Of a stretch of DNA of 43,844 bases, positions 5,926 to 40,904 are shown one piece after another. Origin of the DNA: an uncultured Oscillospiraceae bacterium (GTDB lineage Bacteria; Bacillota; Clostridia; Oscillospirales; Oscillospiraceae); assembly GCA_944387015.1 (NCBI GenBank), contig CALXDH010000021.1, forward strand, positions 1-43,844, in the 5' to 3' direction. Below the pieces are notes generated by a model, which saw nothing but the letters and a program-made list of their open reading frames with translations, had not been told where the DNA came from and ran no database searches. A program made the position numbers and the translations under genes. The stretch's first letter is position 1, and every line of letters starts with the position of its first letter.

Positions 5926-5931
5926 TCTGCT

Positions 5932-9638: not shown

Positions 9639-9670
9639 AAAAGCGGCTGTCCCGAAGGACAGCCGCTTTT
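9639..9670 (-). terminator. glmS terminator
   Basis: A perfect 14-bp stem (9639-9652 with 9657-9670) with a 4-base loop. On the minus strand its 3' arm ends in TTTT. It lies 22 bases beyond the glmS stop. Confidence 0.8.
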
Positions 9671-9692
9671 CGGATTTCATGCAGAACCGGGA

Positions 9693-11534
9693 TCATTCCA
9701 CCGTCACGCTCTTTGCAAGGTTCCGGGGCTTGTCGATGTCACAGCCCCGCTGAAGCGCCACATAGTAGGAGAAGAGCTGCAGCGGTACCACGCCCAAAGA
9801 CGGCTGGAGCACCGGATGGGTCACCGGCACCGCGACGGTGGCATCGGCAGTCTTTTCCATCTTTTCCCGGAAATCCTCGGTGGTCAGTGCCAGCACCTCG
9901 GCGCCCCGGGCCTTGACCTCCACCACGTTGCTCATGGCCTTGTCAAAAAGCGGCGCATACGTGCCCAGCGCCACCACCAGGGTCCCCTGTTCGATCAGGG
10001 AGATGGTGCCGTGCTTGAGTTCGCCGGAAGCATAGGCCTCGGAGTGGATATAGCTGATCTCCTTGAGCTTCAAAGAGCCCTCCATGCCCATGGCGTAATC
10101 CAGATTCCGTCCGATGAAGAAGATGGAATCGTGGTTGAAATACCGGGAGGCAAAATACTGAATGTCCTCCGTATCCCGGTTCAGCATCTCCTGCATTTTC
10201 TCCGGCAGGGACTGGACCTCCGTCAGGATCGCGTCATATTCGCTCTGCTCCACGGTCCCCAGCAGATCCGCCAGATACAGGCCCACCAGATCCATCAGCA
10301 CCAACTGGGTGGAATAGGCCTTGGTGGTCGCCACGGCGATCTCGGGACCTGCCCAGGTGTAGAGCACATCGTCGGCCTCCCGGGCGATGGAAGATCCCAC
10401 CACATTGACGATGGCCAGCGTCCGGCCGCCCCGGCGCTTGGCCTCCCGCATGGCGGCCATGGTGTCCAGCGTCTCGCCGGACTGGCTGATGACCACCACC
10501 AGGGACTTTTCATCCACCAGGGGATCGCAGTAACGGAACTCGCTGGCCAGCGTCACTTCCACCGGCCGGCGCATCAGCTTTTCCCAGTTGTACTTGCTGA
10601 CCATACCCACATGATAGGAAGAGCCGCAGGCAATGATGAAGATCCGGGAGATGTCCCGCACATATTCCTCCGTCAGGTGCAGGTCATCCAGCACCACCCG
10701 GCCATTCTTGATCCGGGGAGAGACGGTCTTACGGATAGCCTCCGGCTGCTCCATGATCTCCTTGAGCATAAAGTGGGGATAGCCGCCCTTTTCCGCCGCG
10801 GACACATCCCAGTCCACAGTGCTGCGGTGCTTTTCCACAGGCACCAGCTCGTCATCGAATACGTCGATGGAGTCCGCCGTCAGCACAGCGATCTCCCCGT
10901 CGTCCATATAGGCCACATCCCGGGTGTACTTGATGATGGCTGTGACGTCGGAGGCGATGAAGTTTCCGTTTTCCCCATAGCCCAGGATCAGCGGGCTGTC
11001 CTTCCGGGCAGCGATGAGGGCGTTGGGATAATCGGCGCAGATAATGCCGAAGGCGTAGGAGCCCTCGATCCGCCGCAGCACCCGGCCCACGGCCTCCAGC
11101 ATGTTGTGGCACTCGTTGTAATGGTATTCCAGCAGCTGCGCCACCACCTCGGAGTCCGTCTCGGACTGGAAGGTGACGCCCAGCTTCTGCAGATGTTCCT
11201 TGAGTTCCAGATAGTTTTCGATGATGCCGTTGTGGACAATGGCAATACGGCCGTTTTCGCTGACATGGGGGTGGGCATTGATGTCGTTGGGTTCCCCGTG
11301 AGTGGCCCAACGGGTATGGCCGATGCCCAGGTTGCCCTCCAGGTCCGCACCGCCGTGGATCAGATCACTGAGGACCTTCAGACGGCCCTTGGTCTTTTTG
11401 ACCTGCAGTCCCTTGGTCTCAGAACGCACCGCCACGCCGGCAGAGTCATAGCCCCGGTATTCCATCCGGGCAAGGCCATCCAGCAAAATAGGGGCCGCCG
11501 GCTCCCGGCCGACGAAACCGATGATTCCACACAT
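9693..11534 (-). CDS. glmS: Glutamine--fructose-6-phosphate aminotransferase (isomerizing)
   Basis: GlmS makes glucosamine-6-phosphate from fructose-6-phosphate and glutamine, the entry step to amino sugars for peptidoglycan and wall polymers. The mature protein (613 residues) starts MCGIIGFVG, so the nucleophilic cysteine follows the initiator Met. The glutaminase domain (about 1-240) contains GHTRWATHGEP. Two SIS sugar-isomerase domains follow (IIACGSSYHVG, VVISQSGETLDT, EGSLKLKEISYIHSEAY), and the protein ends LAKSVTVE as expected. The ATG at 11534 has a strong AGGAGG. The leader carries a glmS ribozyme, so excess product should silence the message. Confidence 0.96.
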   Translation of the reverse strand: MCGIIGFVGREPAAPILLDGLARMEYRGYDSAGVAVRSETKGLQVKKTKGRLKVLSDLIHGGADLEGNLGIGHTRWATHGEPNDINAHPHVSENGRIAIVHNGIIENYLELKEHLQKLGVTFQSETDSEVVAQLLEYHYNECHNMLEAVGRVLRRIEGSYAFGIICADYPNALIAARKDSPLILGYGENGNFIASDVTAIIKYTRDVAYMDDGEIAVLTADSIDVFDDELVPVEKHRSTVDWDVSAAEKGGYPHFMLKEIMEQPEAIRKTVSPRIKNGRVVLDDLHLTEEYVRDISRIFIIACGSSYHVGMVSKYNWEKLMRRPVEVTLASEFRYCDPLVDEKSLVVVISQSGETLDTMAAMREAKRRGGRTLAIVNVVGSSIAREADDVLYTWAGPEIAVATTKAYSTQLVLMDLVGLYLADLLGTVEQSEYDAILTEVQSLPEKMQEMLNRDTEDIQYFASRYFNHDSIFFIGRNLDYAMGMEGSLKLKEISYIHSEAYASGELKHGTISLIEQGTLVVALGTYAPLFDKAMSNVVEVKARGAEVLALTTEDFREKMEKTADATVAVPVTHPVLQPSLGVVPLQLFSYYVALQRGCDIDKPRNLAKSVTVE

Positions 11535-11594: not shown

Positions 11595-11770
11595 TGTCTC
11601 TTTTCCGCAGTCATGGCCGTTCTGTTTTGCGGTCATCCGCATATTTGTGGGTCATGTGTCGCACCTGCGTGTACGGAAGGGCATCCGCCGAATATTCGAT
11701 CACAGGGGGATTCCCCCGTTTGTTCCCTTCTCCTCGTCATCCTGCCGGTTTCCGGCAGGCACTGGCGCTT
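11595..11770 (-). ncRNA. glmS ribozyme: glmS ribozyme riboswitch
   Basis: The minus-strand leader matches the glmS catalytic riboswitch core in order. It shows the cleavage-site segment AGCGCC (11764-11769, cut expected between 11769 and 11768), then a GC-rich P2-type hairpin. GACGAGG follows (11732-11738), then ATCGA (11696-11700) and GGCGGATGCCC. The downstream P3/P4 region ends near GACTGCGG at about 11600. The family self-cleaves when glucosamine-6-phosphate binds, and the exposed 5' end leads to decay of the glmS message. It sits about 60-235 bases upstream of the glmS ATG. The outer ends are approximate. Confidence 0.88.
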
Positions 11771-11897
11771 TTGATGGGACTTCTCCCATGATCCTCCTTT
11801 CTTTCTGCGCTTTTCTATCATAAACCTCCCGAGGGAGTATGATACCTGTATAATCCCCGCCGATTCCCGGAATGCTACCAGGACGGAGGGATATGCT

Positions 11898-27486: not shown

Positions 27487-29712
27487 ATGAAAGTCATCCA
27501 TCTGATCAGCGGCGGTGACTCCGGCGGCGCGAAGACCCACGTCCTGAGTCTGCTGCAGAACCTGAACAAGACCATCACCGCCCAACTGGTGTGCTTCCGG
27601 GACGGCCCCTTCGCCCAGGAGGCCCGGAGCCTGGGGATCCCCACCATGATCTGCGGCGGCAACAACATTTTCCGCACCCGGCGTCAGCTGACGGAGTATA
27701 TCCGCCAGGGCGGTTATGAAATCATTCACTGCCACGGTTCCCGGGCCAATATGATCGGTGCGCTGCTTCGCCATCCCACGGGGGTGCCGGTGGTGACCAC
27801 TGTTCACAGCGACTACAAGCTGGACTACATGGGCCGCCCGCTGAGCCATCTGACCTTCGGCAACATCAACGCCTGGGCGCTGCGGCAGCTGGACTACCGC
27901 ATCGGCGTCTCCGATGCGATGGTGGACCTTCTGATCCAACGGGGATTCCCACCTGACCGGTTTTATGCCATCTACAATGGCATCGACTTCACCCCCGCCC
28001 CCAACCAGGGCGACCGGCTGGAGTATCTCAGGAGTCTCGGCGCCGACGTAGACCAAAACAGCGTTGTGGTAGGCATCGCTGCCCGGCTCAATCCCGTCAA
28101 GGATATGTCCACGCTGATCCGGGGCTTTGCCGCCGGTTATGCCCAGTGTCCCCGGCTGCGGCTGGTGATCGCCGGCGACGGCGAGGAGCGGGAAAAGCTG
28201 GGGAACCTGGCCAAGGAACTGGGCGTGGAGCATCAGGTGACCTTTGCCGGTTGGATCAGCGGCGGTATGGACCGGTTTTACTCCGCTCTGGACATCAACG
28301 CCCTCACCTCCCTCTCTGAGACCTTTCCCTATGCCCTGACGGAGGGTGCCCGGTTCCATCTGGCCACTGTCTCCACCGCCGTGGGCGGCATCCCCTATCT
28401 GATCGACCAGGATGTGAACGGCTACCTGTTTACCCCCGGCGACTGGCAATCTCTGGGGAAGTATCTCGCGGCTCTGGGCAATGACGACGCGCTGCGCCGG
28501 GATATGGGCGAAAAGCTTTACCAGAAGGCCTCCACGCAGTTCTCCATCCAGCGGACCGTGGACACCCAGCTGCATATCTATCAGGAGATCCTCCGCCGCC
28601 ACAGCCGCCCCAAGATGGCCCGGGACGGCGTGGTGATCTGCGGCGCCTACGGCCGGGGCAACGCCGGTGACGATGCCATTCTGGAGGCCATTTTGCAGGA
28701 GATGCGCTCTCTGGATCCGGACATGCCCATGACGGTCCTCTCCAAGGACCCCAAGTCCACCCGGCTCACTTACCGGGTTCAGGCGGTCCACCGGGCCAAC
28801 TTCCCCGCCTGGCACCGGGCCATGCACCACGCAAAGCTCTATATCAACGGCGGCGGCAGTTTGATCCAGGATGTCACTTCCCGCCGCTCCCTGTGGTACT
28901 ATCTCCATAACATCCAAACCGCCAAGCGCTGCGGCTGCAAGGTCCAGATGTACGGCTGCGGCATTGGCCCCGTGATCCGTGAGAGCCACCGGAAGATGGC
29001 CGCCAGGGTCCTCAACGCCAATGTGGACGCCATCACCCTCCGGGAGCCGGATTCTCTGGAGGAGCTGCGGGCCATGGGTGTGGACAAGCCGGAGATCCTG
29101 CTGACGGCGGACCCCGCGCTAACGCTGCGCCAGGCCCCGGAGGACCAGACGGACAGTGTGCTGCTGCGGGCCGGCATCCCTCCCCACGGCCGGTATATCT
29201 GCTTCGCCCTGCGGCGCTGGAAAGGCTTCGAGGAAAAAGCACCGCTCTTCAGCAAGGCGGCAGAATACGCCTACCGGACCTATGGCCTCACACCGGTGTT
29301 TGCCGCGGTGGAAAAGCACCTGGACCCCGGCGCCAACCAGATGGCAGCCCGTGGGCTCTCGGTTCCCCACTATTTTCTTAATGACGCCGGCAGTGCCGGC
29401 ACCATCATCGGTGCCCTCAGCCGGATGGAAATCGTGGTTTCCATGCGCCTTCACGCGCTGATCTTTGCCGCCGGCCAGGGCATCCCGCTGGCAGGCGTGG
29501 TCTATGACCCCAAGGTGTCCGCCTTCCTGCGCTATATCGGCCAGGAGCAGTTCGTGGATCTGGAAGCTTTGACGGAGGAGGGGCTGCGGCAGATGATCGA
29601 TCACTGTGCGGCCCAGTCCGCCCACCCGGAGGCACAGGCAGAGGCCGTCAAACGTCTGCAGGAAATGGAACAGCGCAACGTGACCACCGCCCGGCGTCTG
29701 CTGGGCATGTAA
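27487..29712 (+). CDS. csaB: Glycosyltransferase family 4 fused to CsaB pyruvyl transferase
   Basis: A 741-residue fusion. Residues about 1-372 are a GT-B glycosyltransferase of family 4 (MKVIHLISGGDSGGAKTHVL at the N-terminus, VVGIAARLNPVKD, LVIAGDGEEREKL, and the EX7E-like SLSETFPYALTEG). Residues about 381-741 are CsaB-type polysaccharide pyruvyl transferase (GAYGRGNAGDDAILEA, YINGGGSLIQD, YGCGIGPV, ISMRLHAL-like VVSMRLHALIFA). CsaB adds ketal pyruvate to secondary wall polymer, making the ligand that SLH domains bind. The fusion suggests that sugar transfer and pyruvylation are coupled. The SLH-GH25 protein at 6619-8268 is a likely beneficiary. Confidence 0.92.
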   Translation: MKVIHLISGGDSGGAKTHVLSLLQNLNKTITAQLVCFRDGPFAQEARSLGIPTMICGGNNIFRTRRQLTEYIRQGGYEIIHCHGSRANMIGALLRHPTGVPVVTTVHSDYKLDYMGRPLSHLTFGNINAWALRQLDYRIGVSDAMVDLLIQRGFPPDRFYAIYNGIDFTPAPNQGDRLEYLRSLGADVDQNSVVVGIAARLNPVKDMSTLIRGFAAGYAQCPRLRLVIAGDGEEREKLGNLAKELGVEHQVTFAGWISGGMDRFYSALDINALTSLSETFPYALTEGARFHLATVSTAVGGIPYLIDQDVNGYLFTPGDWQSLGKYLAALGNDDALRRDMGEKLYQKASTQFSIQRTVDTQLHIYQEILRRHSRPKMARDGVVICGAYGRGNAGDDAILEAILQEMRSLDPDMPMTVLSKDPKSTRLTYRVQAVHRANFPAWHRAMHHAKLYINGGGSLIQDVTSRRSLWYYLHNIQTAKRCGCKVQMYGCGIGPVIRESHRKMAARVLNANVDAITLREPDSLEELRAMGVDKPEILLTADPALTLRQAPEDQTDSVLLRAGIPPHGRYICFALRRWKGFEEKAPLFSKAAEYAYRTYGLTPVFAAVEKHLDPGANQMAARGLSVPHYFLNDAGSAGTIIGALSRMEIVVSMRLHALIFAAGQGIPLAGVVYDPKVSAFLRYIGQEQFVDLEALTEEGLRQMIDHCAAQSAHPEAQAEAVKRLQEMEQRNVTTARRLLGM

Positions 29713-29756: not shown

Positions 29757-30677
29757 ATGAAGGACCTCAAGCCCACCTGCCGGGTGGCCGTGATCCAGGC
29801 CGCCCCCCTTCTGTTCCGGAAGGACGCCTGCGTGGAAAAAGCCGTCTCGCTGATCCTGGAAGCCGCCCAGCTCCAGGCGGAACTGATCGTGTTCCCGGAG
29901 CTGTTCATTCCCGGCTATCCCTTCGGCATGACCTTCGGCTTCACCGTGGGACACCGGGACGAGGGCGGCCGCCAGGACTGGAAACGGTACTACGACAACT
30001 CCATCCTGGTCCCCGGCCCGGAGACGGAGCTGCTGGGGCGGGCCGCTCGGGAGGCCGGTGCCTGGGTCAGCATCGGCGTCAGCGAGCGGGACGCCGTCAC
30101 TGCCACGCTGTATAACTCCAACCTGTTCTTCTCCCCGGACGGACGGCTGGCAGCCTGCCACCGCAAACTCAAGCCCACCGGAGCGGAGCGGGTGGTCTGG
30201 GGCGACGCCGACCGGGCCTACTTCCCGGTGGCGCAGACCCCCTGGGGCCCCACGGGCAGCCTGATCTGCTGGGAGAGCTATATGCCCCTGGCCCGGGCCG
30301 CCCTGTATGAAAAGGGCATAACGCTGTATGTCTCCCCCAATACCAACGACAATCCGGAGTGGCAGTCCACCGTCCGCCACATTGCCATCGAGGGCCGGTG
30401 CTTCTTCCTCAACTGCGATATGCTGATCCCCCGCAGCAGTTATCCCCGGGATCTCCACTGTCCCCAGGAGATCGCCCGCCTGCCGGAGCTGGCCTGCCGG
30501 GGCGGCAGCTGTATCGTGGACCCCCAGGGCCATTATGTGGTGGAGCCCGTCTGGGACCGGGAGGCCATCCTCACCGCAGACCTGGACATGTCCCTGGTTC
30601 CTGCCAGCCGGATGGAATTTGACCCCTGCGGCCACTACGCCCGGCCGGATGTGCTGGAGCTGACGGTACACGAATGA
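29757..30677 (+). CDS. Nitrilase-superfamily carbon-nitrogen hydrolase
   Basis: A 306-residue member of the nitrilase/aliphatic nitrilase branch. The catalytic triad is intact: Glu48 in IVFPELF, Lys137 in HRKLKPTG and Cys171 in GSLICWESY. A structural HPVLRPD-like ARPDVLEL segment ends the chain. It would hydrolyse a nitrile, or an amide-like substrate, in the cytoplasm, and the physiological substrate is not predictable. AAAGGAG precedes the ATG. It starts 44 bases after the csaB stop, so cotranscription is likely, though a shared pathway is not evident. A strong terminator follows. Confidence 0.9.
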   Translation: MKDLKPTCRVAVIQAAPLLFRKDACVEKAVSLILEAAQLQAELIVFPELFIPGYPFGMTFGFTVGHRDEGGRQDWKRYYDNSILVPGPETELLGRAAREAGAWVSIGVSERDAVTATLYNSNLFFSPDGRLAACHRKLKPTGAERVVWGDADRAYFPVAQTPWGPTGSLICWESYMPLARAALYEKGITLYVSPNTNDNPEWQSTVRHIAIEGRCFFLNCDMLIPRSSYPRDLHCPQEIARLPELACRGGSCIVDPQGHYVVEPVWDREAILTADLDMSLVPASRMEFDPCGHYARPDVLELTVHE

Positions 30678-30751: not shown

Positions 30752-31384
30752 TCAGGTGGACTTCTCCTCCTGCTTTGTGTCAATATACGAATAGAGCGTA
30801 TATTTGGAAATGCCGAAGTACTTGGCGATCTTGTCGCCGGACTTGGTTACCAAAAACGCGCCGTTTTGGTTGAGGAAGCGGATCGCCTTGACCTTGTCGT
30901 CTTTGTTCATCAGCGCCACCGGCTTGCCCACCAGCGCCACGGATTGTTCGATCAGGTCATCCAGAAGATCGTTGATATTGACGATCTTCTCCGGCTCCGT
31001 CTGCTGAGTCTCCTCTCCGGTGGAGATGAGATCCCGCACCGCACTCTCCACCATCAGCAGCTTGGAGATGTCATAGTTGATGGAAAAGATGGCAGAGACC
31101 TTCCCTTTGCTGTTGCGGATGTAGACGGTAGAGGACTTGAGAATTTTCCCGTCGGGCGTCTTGGTCAGATAGCACAGGTGGTCCTTGGGCTCCGGGTCAT
31201 TGGTCTGGAGCTGTTCGATGACCACATGGGACGCGCCGTCCCCCACCTTCCGGCCGGTGACATGCCCGTTGACGATCTCCACAATGGAGTGGTCCGGATG
31301 GCGGCTGAGGTCGTGGACCACTACCTCGCAGTTGCTGCCGAACTGAGCTGCGATCCCGGCCGCCACCTGCCGCAGCAATTCCAA
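30752..31384 (-). CDS. YheO-like PAS / HTH transcriptional regulator
   Basis: A 210-residue regulator. The N-terminal YheO-type PAS-like domain (FGSNCEVVVHDLS, then GRKVGDG and a central SSTVYIRNSKGKVSAIFSIN) probably senses a small ligand. The C-terminal HTH_22-type domain (NQNGAFLVTKSGDKIAKYFGISKYTLYSYI) binds DNA. Related proteins (DauR, YheO) control amino-acid or related catabolic genes. It is divergent from ygeY, 228 bases away, and is the obvious candidate controller of the ygeY-ygeW-arcC operon. The start is uncertain. TTG at 31384 is the first possible standard start, but the ribosome-site-like GGGGG lies too far upstream. Confidence 0.88.
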   Translation of the reverse strand: MELLRQVAAGIAAQFGSNCEVVVHDLSRHPDHSIVEIVNGHVTGRKVGDGASHVVIEQLQTNDPEPKDHLCYLTKTPDGKILKSSTVYIRNSKGKVSAIFSINYDISKLLMVESAVRDLISTGEETQQTEPEKIVNINDLLDDLIEQSVALVGKPVALMNKDDKVKAIRFLNQNGAFLVTKSGDKIAKYFGISKYTLYSYIDTKQEEKST

Positions 31385-31457
31385 CTTTCCGCTTTCGATA
31401 CGAAATTCCCCCTTTTCGGCGTTGTTTTCCGTACAAAACTTCTAATAATCTGTTTTT

Positions 31458-31485
31458 ATCATACCATATTTTTTATAGAAAGCAA
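31458..31485 (-). promoter_or_regulatory. Promoter of the YheO-like regulator
   Basis: On the minus strand TTGCTT (31480-31485), a 16-base spacer and TATGAT (31458-31463), with TGG before the -10. Confidence 0.55.
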
Positions 31486-31526
31486 CCGCTTTTTCAAAAA
31501 ATTTTTTAGGTTTTCTCATTTTTTGT

Positions 31527-31554
31527 TTGACAACTGATTTTCTTATGCTATGAT
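31527..31554 (+). promoter_or_regulatory. Promoter of the ygeY-ygeW-arcC operon
   Basis: A perfect TTGACA (31527-31532), a 16-base spacer and TATGAT (31549-31554), with TGC directly before the -10, 59 bases ahead of ygeY. The region between the two divergent promoters is AT-rich and is the likely site of control by the regulator. Confidence 0.75.
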
Positions 31555-31612
31555 AAGGATAGAGTAAAGACCACCTACCGACAAAAATCATGATTGATGG
31601 AGGGCAGCGGTT

Positions 31613-33022
31613 ATGGATTTTGAAGCGATCAAGTCTGCGGCAGAGGGTTACAAGGCGGACATGTCCCGGTTCCTGCGGGATATGATCTCCCATCCCAGCG
31701 AGAGCTGTGAGGAGAAAGAAGTGGTCATGTGCATCAAGGCCGAGATGGAAAAGCTGGGCTTTGACAAGGTGGAAGTGGACGGCCTGGGCAACGTCATCGG
31801 CTGGATGGGCGAGGGCGAGAAGATCATCGCCATCGACTCCCACATCGACACTGTGGGCGTGGGCAACCTGAACAACTGGGAGGCCGACCCCTACAAGGGC
31901 TACGAGACCGATGACGTCATCTTCGGCCGGGGCGGTTCCGACCAGGAGGGCGGCATGGCCTCCGCGGTCTACGGCGCCAAGATCATGAAGGACATGGGGC
32001 TGATCCCCGCCGGCTACAAGATCATGGTCGTGGGCTCCGTGCAGGAGGAGGACTGCGACGGCATGTGCTGGCAGTACATCGTCAACAAGTACTTCGCCGG
32101 TCCGGAGGATGCCCGGAAGAAGATCGAGTTCGTCATCTCTACCGAGCCCACCGACGGCGGAATCTACCGCGGTCACCGGGGCCGCATGGAGATCCGTGTG
32201 GACGTGAAGGGCGTCTCCTGCCACGGTTCCGCTCCCGAGCGGGGCGATAACGCCATTTACAAGATGGCCGACATCATCCGTGAAGTCCGTTCCCTCAACG
32301 AAAACGGCGACGGTCCCTCCAATGACATCAAGGGTCTCGTGAAGATGCTCAATCCCGAATTCAACCCCGAGCACTATGAGGACGCCCAGTTCCTGGGCCG
32401 GGGCACCTGCACCGTCAGCCAGGTGTTCTACACCTCTCCTTCCCGCTGCGCGGTGGCGGACAGCTGCGCCATCTCCATCGACCGCCGCATGACGGCCGGC
32501 GAGACCTGGGATTCCTGCCTGGAGGAGATCCGTCAGCTGCCCTCCGTCAAGAAGTACGGCGACGACGTGAAGGTCAGCATGTACATGTATGACCGTCCCT
32601 CCTGGACCGGCGAGGTCTATGAGACGGAGAGCTTCTTCCCCACTTGGATCAACAAGGAGAGCGCCGCCCATGTCCAGGCCCTTATCGACGCTCACCATGC
32701 CCTGTACGGCGAGGAGCGCATCGGCCACGCCGACACCGATCCTAAGTACGACGCCATGCACCTGCGTCACCGTCCCCTGACGGACAAGTGGACCTTCTCC
32801 ACCAACTGCGTGTCCATCCAGGGCCGGTACGGCATCCCCTGCGTGGGCTTCGGCCCCGGCGCCGAGTCCCAGGCCCACGCCCCCAATGAGATCACCTGGA
32901 AGCAGGATCTGGTCACCTGTGCCGCCGTGTATGTGGCTGCCGTGAACCTCTACAAAGAGGAGAACAAGACCGCCGACGTCACGGAGTTCCGCCAGAGCCT
33001 GACGGATAACGACATCCAGTAA
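31613..33022 (+). CDS. ygeY: YgeY-family M20 metallohydrolase
   Basis: A 469-residue M20 peptidase/deacylase-like enzyme of the YgeY group, long annotated as linked to selenium metabolism and found in purine/urate degradation clusters. Metal-site motifs are visible: His77 with Asp79 (SHIDTV), Asp110 ([10 protein letters not shown]) and Glu145-146 (QEEDCDG), plus a distal HAPNE. It should hydrolyse an amide or ureido bond in a small substrate. GGAGGG precedes the ATG. It is the first gene of the operon behind a good promoter. The ygeX ammonia-lyase that accompanies it in E. coli is absent from this window. Confidence 0.9.
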
Positions 33023-33028
33023 AATCGT

Positions 33029-33167
33029 CGTCAAAATGCAGGCATTTTGACGAGGGAACGGCTTTCTGCGCGCACTCGCTGCGCTCGCACACTGGAAAGC
33101 CGAGCGGTATTTTTGGCGACGTACACGCCGCCGCCAAAAATAAAAAAGAATTGCGGTTTCAAGCCGC
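33029..33167 (+). repeat. Cluster of four hairpins between ygeY and ygeW
   Basis: Successive inverted repeats fill the 202-base spacer. They are a 10-bp stem (33029-33038 with 33043-33052), an 8-bp stem (33059-33066 with 33095-33102) and an 11-bp stem (33108-33118 with 33132-33142). A fourth, 5-bp stem (33152-33156 with 33164-33168) follows. The second encloses a GC-rich near-palindrome. An A-rich stretch (33142-33147) follows the third. This could be a processing or stability element or a repeat family. It contains no gene. Confidence 0.7.
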
Positions 33168-33224
33168 AGCAAACCGGAATTTCTCATACAGCCATATATC
33201 AAATATTATTAAGGAGAGCTGACT

Positions 33225-34415
33225 ATGTCCAAGACGATTGAGCTGGCAAAGCATCTGGAAAAGCTGCACATCAACAATATGTACAAGTCCGACTTCTACT
33301 GGACTTGGGACAAGACCGACGAGGAGCTGGACGCCATCTTCACCGTGGCCGACGCCCTGCGGGACCTGCGGGAGCGCAACAAGTCCACCCGGGTGTTTGA
33401 CTCCGGTCTGGGCATCTCCATCTTCCGGGACAACTCCACCCGTACCCGCTTCTCCTTTGCCTCCGCCTGCAACCTGCTGGGCCTGAACGTCCAGGACCTG
33501 GATGAGAAGAAGAGCCAGATCGCCCACGGCGAGACTGTCCGTGAGACCGCCAACATGGTCTCCTTCATGGCCGACGTCATCGGCATCCGGGACGATATGT
33601 TCATCGGCGAGGGCCACAAGTATCAGAAGACCTTCATGGACGCCGTGTCCGAGGGCTACCGGGACGGTATCCTGGAGCAGCGTCCCACCCTGGTGAACCT
33701 GCAGTGTGATGTGGACCACCCCACTCAGTGCATGGCCGACATGCTGCACATCATCCACCACTTCGGCGGCGTGGAGAACCTCAAGGGCAAGAAGATCGCC
33801 ATGACCTGGGCCTATTCTCCCTCCTACGGCAAGCCCCTGTCCGTTCCCCAGGGCGTCATCGGCCTGATGACCCGTTTCGGCATGGACGTGGTGCTGGCCC
33901 ATCCCGAGGGCTATGACGTGATGCCCGAGGTGGAGGAGATCGCCAAGAAGAACGCCGCTGCCACCGGCGGCACCTACAAGAAGGTCGCCACCATGGAAGA
34001 GGCCTTCGACGGCGCCGACATCGTCTATCCCAAGTCCTGGGCTCCCTTCGCCGCCATGGAGCAGCGCACGAAGCTGTATCAGGCTGGCGACCAGGCCGGC
34101 ATCGACGCCCTGGAAAAGCAGCTCCTGGCTCAGAACGCCCAGTTCAAGAACTGGACCTGCTCTGAGGAGATGATGAAGCGCACCAAGAACGGCAGCGCTC
34201 TGTACATGCACTGCCTGCCCGCCGACATCACGGGCCTCTCCTGCAAGGAGGGCGAGGTGGACAACTCCGTGTTCGACCGTTATATCGAGCCTCTGTACAA
34301 GGAAGCCAGCTACAAGCCCTATGTCATCGCCGCCATGATCATGATGGCCAAGGTGAAGGACCCCGTGTCCGCCCTGATGGCGATGGACGCCGGCAGCAAG
34401 CGCAAGCTGTTCTGA
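33225..34415 (+). CDS. ygeW: Knotted carbamoyltransferase YgeW
   Basis: A 396-residue carbamoyltransferase, the same length as E. coli YgeW. The carbamoyl-phosphate site is the STRTR motif (residues 71-75), and HCLPAD holds the second-substrate loop. The long internal regions typical of the knotted YgeW subgroup are present. In the purine-linked clusters it is thought to work in the phosphorolytic direction, releasing carbamoyl phosphate from a ureido compound. The true substrate is not established by the sequence. AAGGAGAG precedes the ATG. arcC downstream would use the carbamoyl phosphate. Confidence 0.95.
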   Translation: MSKTIELAKHLEKLHINNMYKSDFYWTWDKTDEELDAIFTVADALRDLRERNKSTRVFDSGLGISIFRDNSTRTRFSFASACNLLGLNVQDLDEKKSQIAHGETVRETANMVSFMADVIGIRDDMFIGEGHKYQKTFMDAVSEGYRDGILEQRPTLVNLQCDVDHPTQCMADMLHIIHHFGGVENLKGKKIAMTWAYSPSYGKPLSVPQGVIGLMTRFGMDVVLAHPEGYDVMPEVEEIAKKNAAATGGTYKKVATMEEAFDGADIVYPKSWAPFAAMEQRTKLYQAGDQAGIDALEKQLLAQNAQFKNWTCSEEMMKRTKNGSALYMHCLPADITGLSCKEGEVDNSVFDRYIEPLYKEASYKPYVIAAMIMMAKVKDPVSALMAMDAGSKRKLF

Positions 34416-34467
34416 GAGAATTGACCAAGACGCGCCGTTTGACGGACGTGTCTGAAAGGAAATGTAC

Positions 34468-34505
34468 ATTTTGGCGGGAATGTGGCTCCATGTTCCCGCC
34501 AAAAT
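34468..34505 (+). repeat. Hairpin between ygeW and arcC
   Basis: A 13-bp perfect stem (34468-34480 with 34493-34505) with a 12-base loop sits in the 159-base spacer. It is not followed by a T-run. Its TTTTGGCG arm resembles the third hairpin of the ygeY-ygeW spacer. Confidence 0.6.
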
Positions 34506-34574
34506 CTTTCCTGCCGGGTATCGGCCGCCAGCCGCGGCGCCCACATATCAAATTTTAGACGAGGTGTCACCACT

Positions 34575-35510
34575 ATGGGTAAACGCATTGTCATCGCACT
34601 GGGCGGCAACGCCCTGGGCAAGAATCTGCCGGAGCAGATGGCCGCCGTGAAGCATACCGCCCGTGCCATCGTGGATCTGATTGAAGAGGGCCATCAGGTG
34701 GTGGTGGCCCACGGAAACGGCCCTCAGGTCGGTATGATCAACACCGCCATGACCACCCTTTCCCGGGAAGATCCCACCCACCCCATGGCCCCCATGTCTG
34801 TGTGCACGGCCATGAGCCAGGGCTACATCGGCTACGACCTGCAAAACTCTCTGCGGGAGGAACTGCTGGACCGCGGCATCCACAAAGCAGTGGCCACCAT
34901 CCTGACCCAGGTAGAGGTGGACCCGGATGACCCGGCCTTCCAGCATCCCACCAAGCCCATCGGCACCTTCATGACCGAGGCGGAGGCGGAGGAAATGCGC
35001 CGCCGCGGCAATGCCGTGATGGAGGACGCCGGCCGCGGCTGGCGCCGGTGTGTAGCGTCTCCCCTGCCCAAGTCCATCATTGAGATCGACACCATCCGGG
35101 CCCTGGTGGACGCCGGACAGGTCGCCGTGGCCTGCGGCGGCGGCGGTATCCCTGTCTACAAGACGGAGGGCCACCACCTCAAGGGCGCCGGTGCCGTCAT
35201 CGACAAGGACTTTGCCTCAGAGCTTCTGGCGGAGGAGCTGGATGCGGACGCTCTCATCATCCTCACCGCTGTGGAAAAGGTTGCCGTCAATTTCGGCAAG
35301 CCCGATCAGCAGTGGCTGGACCATCTGACCCCGGAGGAAGCCCGCAAGTACGAGGCAGAGGGGCAATTCGCCCCCGGCTCCATGCTGCCCAAGGTCCAGG
35401 CCGCGGTAAAGTTCGCCGAGTCCAAGCCCGGCCGCACCGCTCTCATCACGCTGCTGGAAAAGGCCAAGGACGGCATCGCCGGCCGCACCGGTACCGCCGT
35501 CTCCCAGTGA
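34575..35510 (+). CDS. arcC: Carbamate kinase
   Basis: Transfers the phosphate of carbamoyl phosphate to ADP, giving ATP, ammonia and CO2. The 311-residue product has the family N-terminus RIVIALGGNALG, the AHGNGPQVG loop, CGGGGIPV and the DKDFASELLAEEL segment. The ATG at 34575 has GAGGTG eight bases upstream and begins the family sequence. The 31 extra upstream codons in frame are not family-like. It completes a ureido-to-ATP route with ygeW and ygeY. A clear terminator ends this unit before the transport genes. Confidence 0.95.
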   Translation: MGKRIVIALGGNALGKNLPEQMAAVKHTARAIVDLIEEGHQVVVAHGNGPQVGMINTAMTTLSREDPTHPMAPMSVCTAMSQGYIGYDLQNSLREELLDRGIHKAVATILTQVEVDPDDPAFQHPTKPIGTFMTEAEAEEMRRRGNAVMEDAGRGWRRCVASPLPKSIIEIDTIRALVDAGQVAVACGGGGIPVYKTEGHHLKGAGAVIDKDFASELLAEELDADALIILTAVEKVAVNFGKPDQQWLDHLTPEEARKYEAEGQFAPGSMLPKVQAAVKFAESKPGRTALITLLEKAKDGIAGRTGTAVSQ

Positions 35511-35554
35511 ATCCTCTGCCATTCTCTGGAAAGGTCGACCTGTTTATCCTATCC

Positions 35555-35584
35555 AACGCGCCCCACAGTGTGGGGCGCGTTTTT
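35555..35584 (+). terminator. arcC terminator
   Basis: An 11-bp GC-rich stem (35555-35565 with 35571-35581) runs into a TTTTT tract at 35580-35584. Confidence 0.88.
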
Positions 35585-35680
35585 GTGATCTTTTTTATCT
35601 TTTCGGTAATTTTGCTCAAATATTTGGTCATACCTTTCAAATTATCCGTCTATTTTGCAACAGAAAATATGAAAATCCTG

Positions 35681-35709
35681 TTGAATTTTCCTGGATAACC
35701 TTGTATGAT
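35681..35709 (+). promoter_or_regulatory. Promoter of the BMP transporter genes
   Basis: TTGAAT (35681-35686), a 17-base spacer and TATGAT (35704-35709), in an AT-rich intergenic region. Confidence 0.7.
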
Positions 35710-35721
35710 GACAGTAGGCAA

Positions 35722-35743
35722 GGTCATCTCTCCCCAGATGACC
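35722..35743. promoter_or_regulatory. Inverted repeat just after the BMP promoter start point
   Basis: Two 8-base arms (35722-35729 and 35736-35743) read GGTCATCT and AGATGACC around a 6-base spacer, about 12 bases past the -10. The position suits a repressor operator or a 5' mRNA hairpin. Confidence 0.45.
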
Positions 35744-35778
35744 GACTACTATTTTTGGAGTGAGAAGGAGGATACTTT

Positions 35779-37056
35779 ATGAAAAAGAAGTTTCTTGCGA
35801 TGCTCCTCGCCCTGACCATGGCTCTGAGCCTGGCGGCCTGCGGCGGGGACAGCGGTACGGAGGAGCCCTCCGGCAGTGAGGATGCCGGCATCTCCGCGGA
35901 AACCGTGAAGATCGGCCTCATCTGCGTCCACGATCAGAACTCCGGTTACGACGTGGCCCACATCGACGGCCTGACCGCCGCCTGTGAGGAGCTGGGCATC
36001 GATCCCAGCCAGATCGTCTTTAAGTACAACGTTGCTGAAGACCAGAACTGCTATGACGCCGCCGTGGATCTGGCGGAGCAGGGCTGCAACATCATCTTCT
36101 CCGATTCCTACGGTCATCAGTCCTTCATGCAGGATGCGGCCACGGATTATCCCGACGTGACCTTTGTTTCCTGCACCGGCGACCTGGCTGCCGGTTCCGG
36201 CCTCGATAACTACAAGAACATCTTCCCCCACACCTATGAGTCCCGCTACGTCTCCGGTGTGGTGGCCGGCATGAAGCTCAAGGAGCTGATGGACGCCGGT
36301 ACCGTCACCGATCCCAAGATCGGCTACGTGGGCGCTTATCCCTACGCTGAGGTGGTCTGCGGCTACACCGCCTTCCTCCTGGGCATCCAGTCCATCGTCC
36401 CCGAGGCGTACATGGAAGTTCAGTACACCAGCTCCTGGTATGATCTGACCGCCGAGGGCGAGGCTGCCAACCAGCTGATGGCCGACGGCTGCGTCATTAT
36501 CGGCCAGCACGCCGACTCCACCGGTGCTCCCTCCGCCGTCCAGGCCAAGAAGGACGCCGGCGAAGTGGTCTACTCCGTGGGCTACAACATCGACATGCTG
36601 GAGGCCGCTCCCACTGCTGCTCTGACCTCTTCTCAGAACAACTGGTCCGTTCTGTACCGTGACACCCTGGAGAAGTTCCTGGCCGGCGAGGAGATCCCCG
36701 CAGATTACTCCGTCGGCATCACCGAGGACGCTGTTATGATCTCTACGCTGGGCCCTGAGTGCGCCGAGGGCACCCAGGAGGCTGTGGACGCCGCTTGGGC
36801 CGGCATCAAGGACGGCAGCCTGCAGGTCTTCGACACCTCCAAGTTCACCTGCCAGCCCTCCACCGACGGCACCTATCAGGTGGACGCGGACGGTCACGTG
36901 ACCTCCTGCTATGCCTTCGATCTGGACGGTGACTTCGTCAACGACGAGGCCTCCGGCGAAGCCATCGTGGACGGCGCCTTCCAGGAGTCTGTCCTGCGCT
37001 CCGCTCCTTACTTCGCTCTGCGCATCGACGGCATCACCGAACTGAACAACAACTGA
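35779..37056 (+). CDS. BMP-family substrate-binding lipoprotein
   Basis: The 425-residue extracellular binding protein of an ABC importer of the BMP (basic membrane protein) family, whose characterised members bind nucleosides such as guanosine or adenosine. The signal ends in the lipobox LSLAAC (Cys21), followed by a Gly/Ser/Glu linker. The binding domain starts VKIGLICVHDQNSGYD and contains GYVGAYPYAEVVCGYTAFLLG, typical of the family. The start has AGGAGG. The ATPase and permeases follow after a terminator. Placement beside ygeY-ygeW-arcC suggests it captures a purine, nucleoside or ureido substrate. Confidence 0.93.
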   Translation: MKKKFLAMLLALTMALSLAACGGDSGTEEPSGSEDAGISAETVKIGLICVHDQNSGYDVAHIDGLTAACEELGIDPSQIVFKYNVAEDQNCYDAAVDLAEQGCNIIFSDSYGHQSFMQDAATDYPDVTFVSCTGDLAAGSGLDNYKNIFPHTYESRYVSGVVAGMKLKELMDAGTVTDPKIGYVGAYPYAEVVCGYTAFLLGIQSIVPEAYMEVQYTSSWYDLTAEGEAANQLMADGCVIIGQHADSTGAPSAVQAKKDAGEVVYSVGYNIDMLEAAPTAALTSSQNNWSVLYRDTLEKFLAGEEIPADYSVGITEDAVMISTLGPECAEGTQEAVDAAWAGIKDGSLQVFDTSKFTCQPSTDGTYQVDADGHVTSCYAFDLDGDFVNDEASGEAIVDGAFQESVLRSAPYFALRIDGITELNNN

Positions 37057-37067
37057 CGCTCACTCCG

Positions 37068-37099
37068 AAAAGGGGGCTGCCCTTCGGCAGCCCCTTTTT
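37068..37099 (+). terminator. Terminator between the BMP gene and the ABC ATPase
   Basis: A GC-rich stem with a CTTC loop (37068-37098, one bulged G) and a TTTTT run lies 12 bases after the BMP stop. It would make the binding protein more abundant than the downstream components if some transcripts read through. Confidence 0.75.
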
Positions 37100-37237
37100 C
37101 ACCAGTCGCTCCACATTTCCTCCGCGGCACTCCGGCCGCCGGAGTCTTTTACCTTTTCTTTTCCCTCCGGAGGCCAATCCCGCGGGCACAGTCCACGGCT
37201 GCGGCGCGGAACCGTTTTAAAAGGAAGGAAGATTCGC

Positions 37238-38815
37238 TTGGAACAAACCTATGCCATCCAGATGAAAAACATCACCAAGCGCTTCGGCAAGGTCGTGGCA
37301 AACGACCATGTCTCTCTGGACATCAAGCGCGGTGAGATCCTGTCGCTGCTGGGCGAAAACGGCAGCGGCAAAACCACCCTCATGAACATGCTGGCCGGCA
37401 TCTATTTCCCCGACGAGGGTGAAATTCTGGTAAACGGCCAGAGCGTCACCATCGCCTCCCCCAAAGATGCCTTTGACTGCGGCATCGGCATGATCCATCA
37501 GCACTTCAAGCTGGTGGATGTGTTCACTGCGGCTGAAAATATCGTCCTGGGCCTGGACGGTCAGCAGCGGCTGGACCTGAAAGCCGCCTCCGCCAAGATC
37601 AAGGAGATCTGCGAAAAATACGGCTTTGTCATTGACCCCTCCAAGAAAGTCTATAATATGTCCGTCTCGGAAAAGCAGACGGTGGAGATCGTCAAGGTCC
37701 TCTACCGCGGTGCGGACATTCTGATACTGGACGAGCCCACCGCCGTCCTGACCCCCCAGGAGACGGACCGTCTCTTTGACGTCATGCGCAACATGAAGGC
37801 CGACGGCAAGGCCATGGTCATCATCACCCATAAACTCAACGAGGTGATGGAAGTTTCCGACCGAGTGGCCGTTCTGCGCAAGGGCCAGTACATCGGCGAC
37901 GTGGCCACTTCGGACACGAACCCCCAAAAGCTCACGGACATGATGGTGGGCCACGCCGTCACACTGAACATCGACCGCCCCCTGGTGGAAAACCGCCACC
38001 TGCGCCTGGAGGTGAAGGACCTGACGGTCCTGACGCCGGACGGTGTCAAAGCGCTGGACGGCGTGTCGTTTGAGGCCTTCGGCGGTGAGATCCTGGGTGT
38101 GGCCGGCATCTCCGGCAGCGGCCAGAAGGAGCTGCTGGAATCTATCGCGGGCCTTCGTTCTGCCCAGCCGGGCTCCCATGTGATCTATCATCCCCCCTCT
38201 CCCGACGAGCCCATCGCCGGCACGCATGCGCCGGTGGACCGCAAGGGAGAAGAGCTGCTGGGCAAGACTGTCCGTCAGATCCACAATATCGGCGTCTCCA
38301 TGGCCTTTGTGCCGGAGGACCGTTTGGGCATGGGCCTGGTGGGGTCCATGGGCATGGCGGACAACATGATGCTCAAGACCTATCGCTCCGGCAAGGGCCC
38401 CCTCCTCAACCGCAAGCCCCCCCGGGAGCTGGCAGAAAAGGTGAAGGCAGAGCTGGACGTGCTGACGCCCAGCATCAATACGCCGGTCCGGCGGCTCTCC
38501 GGCGGCAATGTGCAGAAGGTCCTGGTGGGCCGCGAGATCGCCCAGGAGCCCTCTGTGCTGATGACGGCTTACGCCGTCCGGGGCCTGGACATCAACACCT
38601 CCTATACCATCTATAACCTGCTGACGGCGGAAAAGCTCAAAGGTGTGGCCGTCATTTACGTGGGCGAGGATCTGGATGTGCTGCTGGAGCTGTGCGACCG
38701 GATCCTGGTCCTCTGCGGCGGTCAGGTCAGCGGCGTCGTGGACGCCCGCACCACCACCAAGGAAGAAGTGGGTATGCTGATGACCCGGTTCAGGAAGGAG
38801 GCCGCAGAGGCATGA
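37238..38815 (+). CDS. ABC importer ATPase with two nucleotide-binding domains
   Basis: A 525-residue ATPase of the sugar/nucleoside class, two ABC domains in one chain. The first has Walker A GENGSGKTT, a signature-like MSVSEKQTVEI, Walker B ILILDEPTAVLT and ITHKLNE. The second has a degenerate Walker A (GISGSGQKE, usual in this family), LSGGNVQKV and an atypical Walker B, VLMTAYAVRGLD. The first domain is therefore the probable catalytic one. The start is TTG at 37238 with AAGGAAGGAAG upstream. It overlaps the first permease by four bases (ATGA). Confidence 0.93.
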   Translation: MEQTYAIQMKNITKRFGKVVANDHVSLDIKRGEILSLLGENGSGKTTLMNMLAGIYFPDEGEILVNGQSVTIASPKDAFDCGIGMIHQHFKLVDVFTAAENIVLGLDGQQRLDLKAASAKIKEICEKYGFVIDPSKKVYNMSVSEKQTVEIVKVLYRGADILILDEPTAVLTPQETDRLFDVMRNMKADGKAMVIITHKLNEVMEVSDRVAVLRKGQYIGDVATSDTNPQKLTDMMVGHAVTLNIDRPLVENRHLRLEVKDLTVLTPDGVKALDGVSFEAFGGEILGVAGISGSGQKELLESIAGLRSAQPGSHVIYHPPSPDEPIAGTHAPVDRKGEELLGKTVRQIHNIGVSMAFVPEDRLGMGLVGSMGMADNMMLKTYRSGKGPLLNRKPPRELAEKVKAELDVLTPSINTPVRRLSGGNVQKVLVGREIAQEPSVLMTAYAVRGLDINTSYTIYNLLTAEKLKGVAVIYVGEDLDVLLELCDRILVLCGGQVSGVVDARTTTKEEVGMLMTRFRKEAAEA

Positions 38816-39921
38816 CACAGGTAAAACAACACAAGGATCCCCTGCTGCGGATCGCCAAACGGGATGCCATCGGCCGCCCCAAGGCTTACGCCATTCGGCT
38901 CATCGGTGTGCTTTTGTCCCTGCTGGTCAGCGGCGCGTTCATCTTTGCGGTCACAAAGCTCAATCCCATCCAGGTGTACAACGCCATCTTTGACGGTGCC
39001 TTCGGTACCGAGCGCCGTTCCTGGGTCACCATCCGGGACGCCATGATGCTCCTGTGCATTGGCGTGGGCCTGGCTCCCGCTTTTAAGATGAAGTTCTGGA
39101 ACATCGGTGCCGAGGGCCAGATCCTCATCGGCGGCATCGTCACCGCGGGCCTGATGCGGGCCTTCGGCAGCACCCTCCCCACGCCTGTTCTGCTGCTGCT
39201 CATGGCAGTCATGAGCCTGCTGGCCGGCTGCGTCTGGGGCGTCATCCCTGCTACCTTCAAGGCCGTGTGGAACACCAATGAGACCCTCTTTACGCTGATG
39301 ATGAACTATGTGGCCATTCAGCTCACCAGCTACTTCGTGGCACTGTGGGAAAACCCCATCGGCTCCAACACCGTGGGCGTCATCAACCAGCGGACCCGTG
39401 CCGGCTGGTTCCCGGAACTGCTGGGCCAGAGCTACACGCTCAACGTGATTTTGGTGATGGCACTGGCCATCGGTATGTTTTTGTACCTGAAGTACTCCAA
39501 GCAGGGCTATGAGATCTCCGTGGTGGGCGACTCTGAGAACACCGCCCGCTATGCCGGCATCAATGTCAAGAAGGTCACCATCCGCACCATGGCCATCTCC
39601 GGTGCCATCTGCGGCATGGCAGGCTTCATCGAGGTGGCTGGCGTCAGCCACACCATCTCCACCTCTACCGCCGGCGGCCGGGGCTTTACCGCTATCATCG
39701 TAGCCTGGCTGGCCCAGTTCAACACGTTCGTGATGATCCTCATCTCCTTCCTGCTGGTGTTCTTGCAGAAGGGCGCCACCCAGATCGCCTCCCAGTTCAA
39801 TCTCAATGACTACGCCTCCAACATCATCACCGGCATCATTTTGTTCTTCATCCTGGGCAGTGAGTTTTTCATCAACTACCGTGTGATCGTGCGCGGCGGA
39901 AAGGAGGGCTCTGCCAAATGA
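38812..39921 (+). CDS. ABC importer permease 1 (BMP/nucleoside type)
   Basis: A 369-residue integral membrane permease of the branched-chain amino-acid/nucleoside importer fold, with about nine to ten helices (LIGVLLSLLVSGAFIFAV and later VILVMALAIGMFLYLKY). The coupling segment GINVKKVTIRTMAISGAICG and the upstream FKMKFWNIGAEGQILIGGI are family hallmarks. The ATG at 38812 overlaps the ATPase stop. It overlaps the second permease in the same way, so the three subunits are translationally coupled. Confidence 0.93.
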   Translation: MTQVKQHKDPLLRIAKRDAIGRPKAYAIRLIGVLLSLLVSGAFIFAVTKLNPIQVYNAIFDGAFGTERRSWVTIRDAMMLLCIGVGLAPAFKMKFWNIGAEGQILIGGIVTAGLMRAFGSTLPTPVLLLLMAVMSLLAGCVWGVIPATFKAVWNTNETLFTLMMNYVAIQLTSYFVALWENPIGSNTVGVINQRTRAGWFPELLGQSYTLNVILVMALAIGMFLYLKYSKQGYEISVVGDSENTARYAGINVKKVTIRTMAISGAICGMAGFIEVAGVSHTISTSTAGGRGFTAIIVAWLAQFNTFVMILISFLLVFLQKGATQIASQFNLNDYASNIITGIILFFILGSEFFINYRVIVRGGKEGSAK

Positions 39922-40904
39922 ACAATCAGATCATCCAGCTGATCCAGTCCGCCATCCAGTTCGGCACCGTCATCATGTTCGGCGCCATCGGTGAGATCTT
40001 GACGGAGAAATCCGGCAATCTGAACCTGGGTGTCCCCGGCATCATGTATCTGGGCGGCATCGCGGGCCTGGCGGCGTCCTTCCTCTACGAGTTCAACAAC
40101 CCGGACCCCAGCAAGCTGGTGTGTCTGCTGCTGAGTTTTCTTGCCGCCTTCCTGGCGGCAGCGCTGGGCGGACTGCTGTACAGCTTCCTCACCATCACCC
40201 TCCGGGCAAACCAGAACGTCACCGGTCTGACGCTGACCATCTTCGGCGGCGGCGTGGCCAACTTCTTCGGCGGCACCCTCAACACTATGGCCGGCGGCGT
40301 GGGCCAGATCTCCGTGGCCACCACCAGCAGCGTATACCGGGCCAACATCCCTGGGCTCTCCACCATGGGTGTTCCGGGTCGGCTGCTGTTCAGCTACGGC
40401 TTTATGGTGTATCTGTCCATCGTGGTGGCCATCGTGATGGCCTGGTTCCTGAACCGGACCCGCCGGGGATTGAACCTCCGGGCCGTGGGTGAGAATCCCG
40501 CCACCGCCGACGCGGCCGGCATCAACGTCACCCGTTACAAGTACGTGGCCACCTGTGTGGGCGCCGGCATCTCGGGCCTTGGCGGTCTGTACTACACCAT
40601 GGACTACATCAAGGGTACCTGGGCCAACGACGGCACCATCGAGTCCCTGGGCTGGCTGGCTGTAGCGCTGGTCATTTTCGCCACCTGGCGCAGCCTCAAC
40701 GCTGTCTGGGGCTCCTATCTCTTCGGTCTTTTGTTCTGGGTGTACCTCATCATCCCGGGCCTCGGCCGGCGGGACATCGCTCTTTTCAACATGCTGCCGT
40801 ATCTTGTGACCATTGCGGTGCTGATCTTCGTCTCCCTGCGGAACAAGAAGGAGAATCAGCCTCCCGCAAGCCTGGGCCTGAGCTACTTCCGGGAAGAGCG
40901 CTGA
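39918..40904 (+). CDS. ABC importer permease 2 (BMP/nucleoside type)
   Basis: The second permease, 328 residues, starting by ATGA overlap with the first. It shows the family GAIGEILTEKSGNLNLGVPG start and a helical core, and the cytoplasmic coupling loop GINVTRYKYVATCVGAGISG. It completes the importer of BMP lipoprotein, ATPase and two permeases. A strong terminator follows. The genes after it are unrelated and face the other way, so this is the right-hand end of the catabolic and uptake block. Confidence 0.93.
   Translation: MNNQIIQLIQSAIQFGTVIMFGAIGEILTEKSGNLNLGVPGIMYLGGIAGLAASFLYEFNNPDPSKLVCLLLSFLAAFLAAALGGLLYSFLTITLRANQNVTGLTLTIFGGGVANFFGGTLNTMAGGVGQISVATTSSVYRANIPGLSTMGVPGRLLFSYGFMVYLSIVVAIVMAWFLNRTRRGLNLRAVGENPATADAAGINVTRYKYVATCVGAGISGLGGLYYTMDYIKGTWANDGTIESLGWLAVALVIFATWRSLNAVWGSYLFGLLFWVYLIIPGLGRRDIALFNMLPYLVTIAVLIFVSLRNKKENQPPASLGLSYFREER

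Follow-up and report, generated by a model that had tools for sequence, protein, structure and literature searches.

A ygeY-ygeW-arcC block with a putative purine-base importer in an uncultured Oscillospiraceae bacterium: probable part of a reductive urate pathway whose other genes lie on separate contigs

Contig CALXDH010000021.1 of an uncultured Oscillospiraceae bacterium (assembly GCA_944387015.1), also designated C21, was analysed over its 43,844 nt, hereafter the window. At positions 30752-40904 it carries a block in which the gene of a YheO-type regulator faces ygeY, ygeW and arcC, followed by the genes of an ATP-binding cassette (ABC) importer with a BMP-type binding protein. A prediction made earlier from the sequence alone (the original prediction) saw in this block a trimmed pathway that would import a partly broken-down purine or ureido compound and gain ATP through carbamoyl phosphate and ArcC. 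The question raised by this locus is whether so few genes constitute a shortened pathway or are one portion of a longer one. Our analyses favour the second answer with a probability of roughly three in four: the block would provide those steps of reductive anaerobic urate (purine) degradation that cleave ureido groups and conserve ATP, coupled with an ABC importer for purine bases, and the host, a gut anaerobe of the Oscillibacter type, has the remaining genes on other contigs.

The predicted layout, with the regulator facing the three enzyme genes and a complete BMP importer behind them, was confirmed by curated models and Pfam profiles (Table 1). YgeY, YgeW and carbamate kinase all score above the curated cut-offs of families belonging to the reductive urate pathway, and the families encountered support the description of a block for the catabolism of purine or ureido compounds that has an importer and a regulator of its own. 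The solved chains closest to YgeW are 2yfk and 3q98. Models for ornithine (127.9 bits, cut-off 280.85), putrescine (105.4, cut-off 500) and aspartate (at most 81.9, cut-off 263) carbamoyltransferases were rejected for this protein as falling far below cut-off, the AllFGH oxamate carbamoyltransferase not having been included in the search. For the importer ATPase, the top NCBIfam model (NF047930) reaches 409.7 bits, under its cut-off of 670. The start of arcC was shifted to the ATG at 34575, a position at which DNA conservation begins in several relatives too.

The other genes of the pathway were found elsewhere in the source genome, which consists of 2.42 Mb in 72 contigs and is 99.6% complete. 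Both ygeX (contig C54, 634 bits) and ssnA (C9, 548 bits) score above cut-off, a hyuA-like dihydropyrimidinase gene occurs on C4 (D-hydantoinase model TIGR02033, 560 bits, cut-off 393), and a selenium-dependent xanthine dehydrogenase (XDH) is encoded on C29 (TIGR03311, 1324 bits, cut-off 830) next to XdhABC. We take the TIGR03311 type to be a fused XdhAC form. An 8-oxoguanine deaminase gene is located on C16 (570 bits, cut-off 532). Two pieces of ygfK were detected, one at the start of C9 (profile positions 1-344, 505 bits) and one at the end of C43 (positions 320-1012, 821 bits); each is under the cut-off of 835 when taken alone, both outscore the unrelated homologues listed (378 bits or less), and they probably represent one gene cut by the assembly. 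YgeX, SsnA, a HyuA-like protein and a molybdenum hydroxylase are therefore present in the genome, the roles of HyuA and of the molybdenum enzymes being assigned by family only; either of two such hydroxylases (the selenium-dependent XDH and XdhABC) may be the one that would reduce urate. The earlier statement that ygeX, ssnA, hyuA and a molybdenum hydroxylase are lacking thus stands for the window and fails for the genome, and with it fails the reading as a trimmed pathway, which is rejected because the genes taken as missing sit on other contigs. The block is thus not a shortened pathway but probably part of a known one whose genes are scattered.

The association extends to a sample of 250 genomes of the family, 69 of which carry ygeW; absence calls in this sample depend on E-value limits and on incomplete genomes, and co-occurrence counts span related genomes. 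An ssnA gene above cut-off was found in 66 of the 69, and two of the three others carry partial copies, so that 68 of 69 have ssnA whole or in part. The sole genome without either (G218, 84% complete) only has distant amidohydrolases. The sample lists 75 ygeW places, 74 of which were read within 10 kb where the contig allows (a fragment on contig C18 of G089 was left out, and pieces of split ygeW genes in G089, G091 and G187 were counted apart). Seventy were parsed automatically; four with overlapping open reading frames (G014, G206a, G138 and G197) were read separately and proved to be ygeX-linked in two cases and, in the other two, linked to the gene pair P1-P2 introduced below.

Gene order and orientation are identical in three same-genus genomes of the sample (in G210 the last permease was missed by the gene caller, its DNA being present), which argues that the block is not a chance assembly. 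Copies of the regulator, 74-86% alike, occupy the same place in these three genomes, and behind each are two genes for putative pyridoxal-phosphate (PLP) enzymes, here termed P1 and P2. An importer of the window's kind lies near ygeW in 14 of the 74 places, namely the window, P1+P2 blocks and two blocks truncated where their contigs stop (G034 and G187). Linkage of the three enzymes and the importer in relatives, which had been set beforehand as a test, is therefore verified in the three same-genus genomes and in only a minority of ygeW places, making it a feature of a clade.

Table 1. Features located in and around the genes of the block (positions in the window; models with their scores and, where given, cut-offs).
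Feature	Positions	Strand	Evidence
YheO-type regulator (PAS_6 + HTH_22), divergent from ygeY	30752..31384	-	PF08348 132.4 bits, PF13309 73.6 bits
Promoter-like site, TTGACA-16-TATGAT with TG, 5' of ygeY	31527..31554	+	consensus matches 11/12
ygeY, M20-family hydrolase	31613..33022	+	NF009555 607 bits, TIGR03526 588 bits (cut-off 321.5), both above cut-off
ygeW, knotted carbamoyltransferase	33225..34415	+	TIGR03316 766.7 bits (cut-off 500)
arcC, carbamate kinase	34575..35510	+	TIGR00746 378.6 bits (cut-off 358.25)
Terminator-like hairpin, 12 pairs, then T-run	35555..35581	+	between arcC and BMP
Second promoter-like site, after hairpin, 5' of BMP	35681..35709		
BMP/PnrA-like substrate-binding lipoprotein, purine-base (AtzT/3s99) kind	35779..37056	+	PF02608 102 bits
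ABC importer ATPase, two ABC domains	37238..38815	+	PF00005, two stretches
Importer permease 1	38812..39921	+	PF02653 106 bits
Importer permease 2	39918..40904	+	PF02653 110.6 bits

Gene content, order, conservation and the presence of pathway families are observed here, and the chemistry of the enzyme families is taken from publications. In the reductive urate pathway, YgeW takes one ureido group off 2,3-diureidopropionate by phosphorolysis, YgeY removes the other and YgeX yields pyruvate (PMC12507026, PMC12990295), the order of the two ureido cuts being disputed between two groups (PMC12990295). Provided that the present copies act as their families do, which like all functions given for the block and the genome is deduced from sequence, the BMP importer would take up a purine base (guanine, 8-oxoguanine, urate or xanthine), and deaminases and molybdenum hydroxylases encoded elsewhere would convert it to urate and then to 2,8-dioxopurine. 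YgfK, SsnA and HyuA would then open the rings to give 2,3-diureidopropionate, YgeW would phosphorolyse one ureido group, with ArcC converting the carbamoyl phosphate to ATP, YgeY would hydrolyse the second one, and the YgeX encoded on C54 would turn 2,3-diaminopropionate into pyruvate. The ATP gain anticipated by the original prediction fits this scheme, since YgeW and ArcC should, from their families and from the published YgeW chemistry (PMC12507026), yield carbamoyl phosphate and ATP, respectively.

As for the importer, comparison of its binding protein with solved structures retrieved 3s99 (E 7.4e-30) and AtzT (6pi5, E 1.4e-28), with 2hqb following at E 1.6e-9, and its nearest solved relatives are thus purine-base binders: AtzT was found with guanine bound (Kd ~0.11 uM) and 3s99 has adenine modelled (PMC6834077). 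When chain numbers of AtzT were shifted by 5 to match the numbering of the paper, an offset derived from the printed residues, Tyr45, Ser97, Glu165 and Trp194 aligned with Y57, S110, E191 and W220 of the window protein, four of the six residues tested being identical. Phe98, which binds by its backbone, corresponds to Y111, Asn218 to H244, and Asn220 most likely to D246 according to an ungapped alignment made by eye, the printed one being gapped; His and Asp are also found at the last two positions in 3s99. Of 36 distinct BMP sequences, window included, 35 have the resulting set (Y57, S110, Y111, E191, W220, H244 and D246, with Phe or Tyr accepted at 111), down to 44% identity. These 36 were obtained from 40 sequences of such loci (39 keeping the pocket) by removing four second copies of the same contigs, and the exception is a BMP of another kind in G200 (24% identical). 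The two other BMP proteins of the source genome do not have the set, as far as they can be aligned at 25% identity.

Further indications come from the genes next to the importer in relatives. An 8-oxoguanine deaminase gene lies behind it in six of the 14 importer-bearing blocks, as recognized by model in G036, G080 and G125 and by the position of the family match in G034, G154 and G209; in G080 an unlabelled open reading frame separates the two, at the place expected for permease 2. Members of this deaminase family convert 8-oxoguanine to urate, and two tested members also convert guanine to xanthine (PMC6186785). Overall, 45 of the 48 genomes of the sample carrying this deaminase (E <= 1e-120) have ygeW. 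Because the nearest structures are purine-base binders, the pocket is largely kept and the deaminase follows the importer in relatives, the substrate is more likely a purine base than a ureido fragment, and the uptake of a partially degraded purine or of a ureido compound, as first proposed, is not favoured. If the importer does take purine bases, it would be a candidate ABC route into the pathway besides UacT-type permeases, and the deaminase link suggests that guanine-type bases also feed this pathway.

Several observations nevertheless weigh against the urate-pathway reading. The genes do not form a compact single cluster but are spread over C21, C54, C9/C43, C4 and C29, and since no contig is shared between the block and the other pathway genes, their joint function is argued from family identity and co-occurrence. 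The importer, near ygeW in so few places, stands outside the core pathway. Of the 70 parsed places, 59 had an arcC called close to ygeW, and some importer blocks (G080 and G236) show none, so that an ATP gain at this step is common and not universal. In the binding pocket, the replacement of Asn218 by His and, most likely, of Asn220 by Asp means that the guanine affinity of AtzT may not carry over. Finally, a strong terminator-like hairpin divides the enzymes from the importer and, because it is followed by a promoter-like site in front of BMP, the two groups of genes are probably carried on separate transcripts.

This last arrangement would agree with separate jobs, ygeY-ygeW-arcC serving urate breakdown and the importer serving the salvage of guanine or 8-oxoguanine to nucleotides, as would the lack of an importer near ygeW in 60 of the 74 places and its occurrence in four Lachnospiraceae contigs (L204, L205, L208 and L209) having no ygeY or ygeW in the stretch. 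In those four, however, the importer runs together with P2, a YgeV-like regulator and P1 plus a deaminase gene or xdhC, which points to catabolism, and the order of enzymes and importer is kept in the three same-genus genomes; we thus consider such a division of labour unlikely. Lower still we would place a stand-alone pathway importing an allantoate-, diureidopropionate- or albizziin-like compound and gaining ATP by means of YgeW and ArcC. In the window the importer is joined by ygeY, ygeW and arcC only, and this arrangement of three enzyme genes and importer is conserved as a unit within the genus, but the genes once thought absent occur on other contigs, the binding protein retains most of a purine-base pocket and ssnA, whole or partial, accompanies ygeW almost throughout the sample. 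A third alternative, in which the substrate of YgeW-ArcC would be a different carbamoyl compound, such as the citrulline, N-carbamoylputrescine or oxalurate of the arginine deiminase, agmatine or allantoin routes, is highly improbable, for although YgeW belongs to the ornithine/aspartate carbamoyltransferase superfamily and an adjoining CN-hydrolase has weak similarity to N-carbamoylputrescine amidase, the YgeW equivalog model scores far above cut-off and the CN-hydrolase is near ygeW in one of 70 parsed places, the window itself.

The most interesting part of these data is the pair of uncharacterised PLP enzymes found in relatives. P1 (about 490 residues, with weak PALP and cysteine-synthase similarity) and P2 (about 415 residues, above the cut-off of a threonine synthase model) are both of PLP fold type II and both match PF00291; an example is located at L045:11981-14781, with others in L171, L206 and L211. 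In Oscillospiraceae and Lachnospiraceae the two genes are repeatedly found with ygeY-ygeW-arcC, the importer, XdhABC and hyuA-like genes as neighbours. The pair adjoins a hyuA-like gene in G022, G078, G054 and G064, and also XdhABC in G078 and G054. In the four Lachnospiraceae contigs mentioned above, the order is importer - P2 - YgeV-like sigma54 regulator - P1, the front gene being a cut 8-oxoguanine deaminase in two and xdhC in two; L213 resembles this arrangement. Given neighbours that include ygeW and ygeY, the importer, deaminase or xdhC, hyuA-like genes and XdhABC, the pair most likely takes part in purine breakdown. Named genomes were also scanned for P1, and the best 80 of 592 confirmed loci were kept, many as short stretches; ygeY lies in the same stretch in 59 of these 80, ygeW in 54 and a BMP importer in 25.

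The relation of the pair to ygeX was then considered at two levels. Near ygeW (74 places), ygeX occurs 22 times, P1 32 times and P2 28 times; P1 and ygeX are near together in a single place (G008) and P2 and ygeX in none. Among the 70 parsed places, P2 is near ygeW in 0 of the 20 that are ygeX-linked (p = 1.6e-5, a value that is too small as the places are kin by descent). This local exclusion leads us to guess that P2 takes over the role of YgeX. For P1 a plain substitution of YgeX does not fit, since the two genes occur together in G008 and at 8 of the 80 best P1 loci. One further stretch, L162 (G039) 7131-11031, carries P1 but neither P2 nor ygeW; an M20 hydrolase 38% like the YgeY of E. 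coli lies close by, and ygeX was not detected in this genome.

At the genome level, 31 of the 69 ygeW genomes have ygeX and a PLP enzyme, 8 only ygeX, 28 only a PLP enzyme and 2 neither (G123 and G161, 81% and 87% complete), and complementarity is not significant (Fisher p = 0.17). Here a PLP enzyme means P1, P2 or both, both being present in 59 of the 250 genomes; weak threonine-synthase-like matches (~30-35% identity) were excluded from P2, and the absence calls for ygeX used a limit of E <= 1e-20 and no more than seven scored candidates per genome, so that a diverged ygeX could be missed. PLP enzymes occur in 59 of the 69 ygeW genomes and in 10 of the 181 others, compared with 39 of 69 and 21 of 181 for ygeX, and are thus tied to ygeW more tightly than ygeX is.

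In the source genome itself, neither P1 nor P2 has a match at E <= 1e-40, and searching the window by tblastn with P1, P2 and ygeX (E <= 1) gave a single match, 51 residues of P1 (E 0.016), antisense within the glycosyltransferase gene. The contig is unbroken across the place expected for P1-P2. In a YgeW tree of 64 rows (63 sequences and that of E. coli, seven of 70 being excluded as shorter than 330 residues), the window YgeW groups with those of G082 and G210 (100/99) within a 28-row clade (100/99) comprising 24 P-linked rows and no ygeX-linked one. Since its YgeW lies within a P-linked clade, yet the genome has neither gene and the contig is intact there, the simplest reading is that the block of the window was once of the P type and that its pair has been lost, the genome having ygeX. 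In Oscillibacter valericigenes An860 (G155; L046 8599-11059), an otherwise P-type block has YgeW and ArcC 75-77% like those of the window and YgeY 90%. This YgeW is placed with a ygeX-linked clade, which, together with the lower likeness of YgeW and ArcC, suggests replacement in place. DNA resembling window positions 3239-6471 occurs some 4-6 kb beyond the PLP pair in L165, L166 and L172, indicating that the chromosomal surroundings of the block are partly kept but rearranged.

Taken together, these features lead us to propose, tentatively and at somewhat less than even odds, that anaerobic purine catabolism in Oscillospiraceae and Lachnospiraceae has a second, as yet unrecognised layout, of which the window would be a derived form. 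In this layout an AtzT-like purine-base importer, 8-oxoguanine deaminase and YgeY-YgeW-ArcC would be combined with P1 and P2, which would finish the pathway in place of, or beside, YgeX. More concretely, a hydantoinase might lead to D intermediates, P1 might racemise or otherwise prepare diaminopropionate or albizziin and P2 might cleave the product; the window genome, having lost the pair and kept YgeX, would then show the two solutions to be interchangeable. One kind of rule for calling the pathway could overlook genomes in which its genes are scattered, as well as relatives that carry the PLP pair but lack ygeX; under another kind, P1 or P2 could be taken for YgeX, since each of them matches PF00291.

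Regarding regulation, we infer that the YheO-type protein probably controls the divergent promoter. The promoter word GTTTGACA is found on either strand in 46 of 54 regulator-ygeY intergenic stretches, some genomes being present twice. A search for regulator sites between these two genes returned, besides this word, only A/T-rich dyads, and no regulon motif was established.

Three other features of the window were recorded. The CN-hydrolase gene (29757-30677; Nit6803-like, 189 bits, under the cut-off of 502.6) occupies the place where relatives have the PLP pair and was rejected as a block member on the count given above; tblastn of this protein and of the glycosyltransferase against the fetched loci of relatives gave nothing at E <= 1e-15. 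The region 27487-29712 is a single gene, with a product of 741 aa, fusing a GT4 glycosyltransferase and a CsaB-type polysaccharide pyruvyl transferase (TIGR03609, 233.6 bits, above cut-off). Finally, a glmS ribozyme/riboswitch was detected at 11602-11780 on the minus strand (58.6 bits, gathering threshold 37), at the start of a minus-strand gene that by its place and start, and not by model, looks like glmS.

With respect to known systems, the core enzymes and their chemistry are already published, and our literature search, in which subscription journals were scarcely represented, found, among the entries and abstracts listed, no description of the PLP pair, the BMP importer or the 8-oxoguanine deaminase with urate clusters. 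The urate cluster of E. coli (xdhD-ygfM, ygfK, ssnA, hyuA, ygeW, yqeA, ygeY and ygeX; PMC12507026) shares the YgeW, YgeY and carbamate kinase families with the block, and its other families are present in the source genome too, ygfK in two pieces. Here, however, the genes lie on five or more contigs, XdhABC and a selenium-dependent XDH of the TIGR03311 type are found where E. coli uses XdhD-YgfM, and a BMP importer and a YheO-type regulator take the place of the UacT and YgeV of the E. coli region. The C. difficile variant with UacX and UacY (PMC12507026) follows the same overall reductive route, but the phosphorolytic YgeW with ArcC, and YgfK (in pieces), which are present here, are replaced there. 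AtzT and 3s99 (PMC6834077) have the pocket Tyr, Ser, aromatic residue, Glu and Trp in common with the window BMP, and AtzT differs in having Asn218 and, by eye, Asn220 at the positions of His244 and Asp246. Closest to the window are the blocks that we call P-type, in which YheO - P1 - P2 faces ygeY-ygeW-arcC-importer, as in O. valericigenes An890 (L171), Sjm18-20 (L211, no regulator called) and O. ruminantium GH1 (L206). Their genes match those of the window in kind, order and orientation, and their clade includes the window YgeW; they differ from it by P1 and P2, in whose place the window carries the CN-hydrolase gene.

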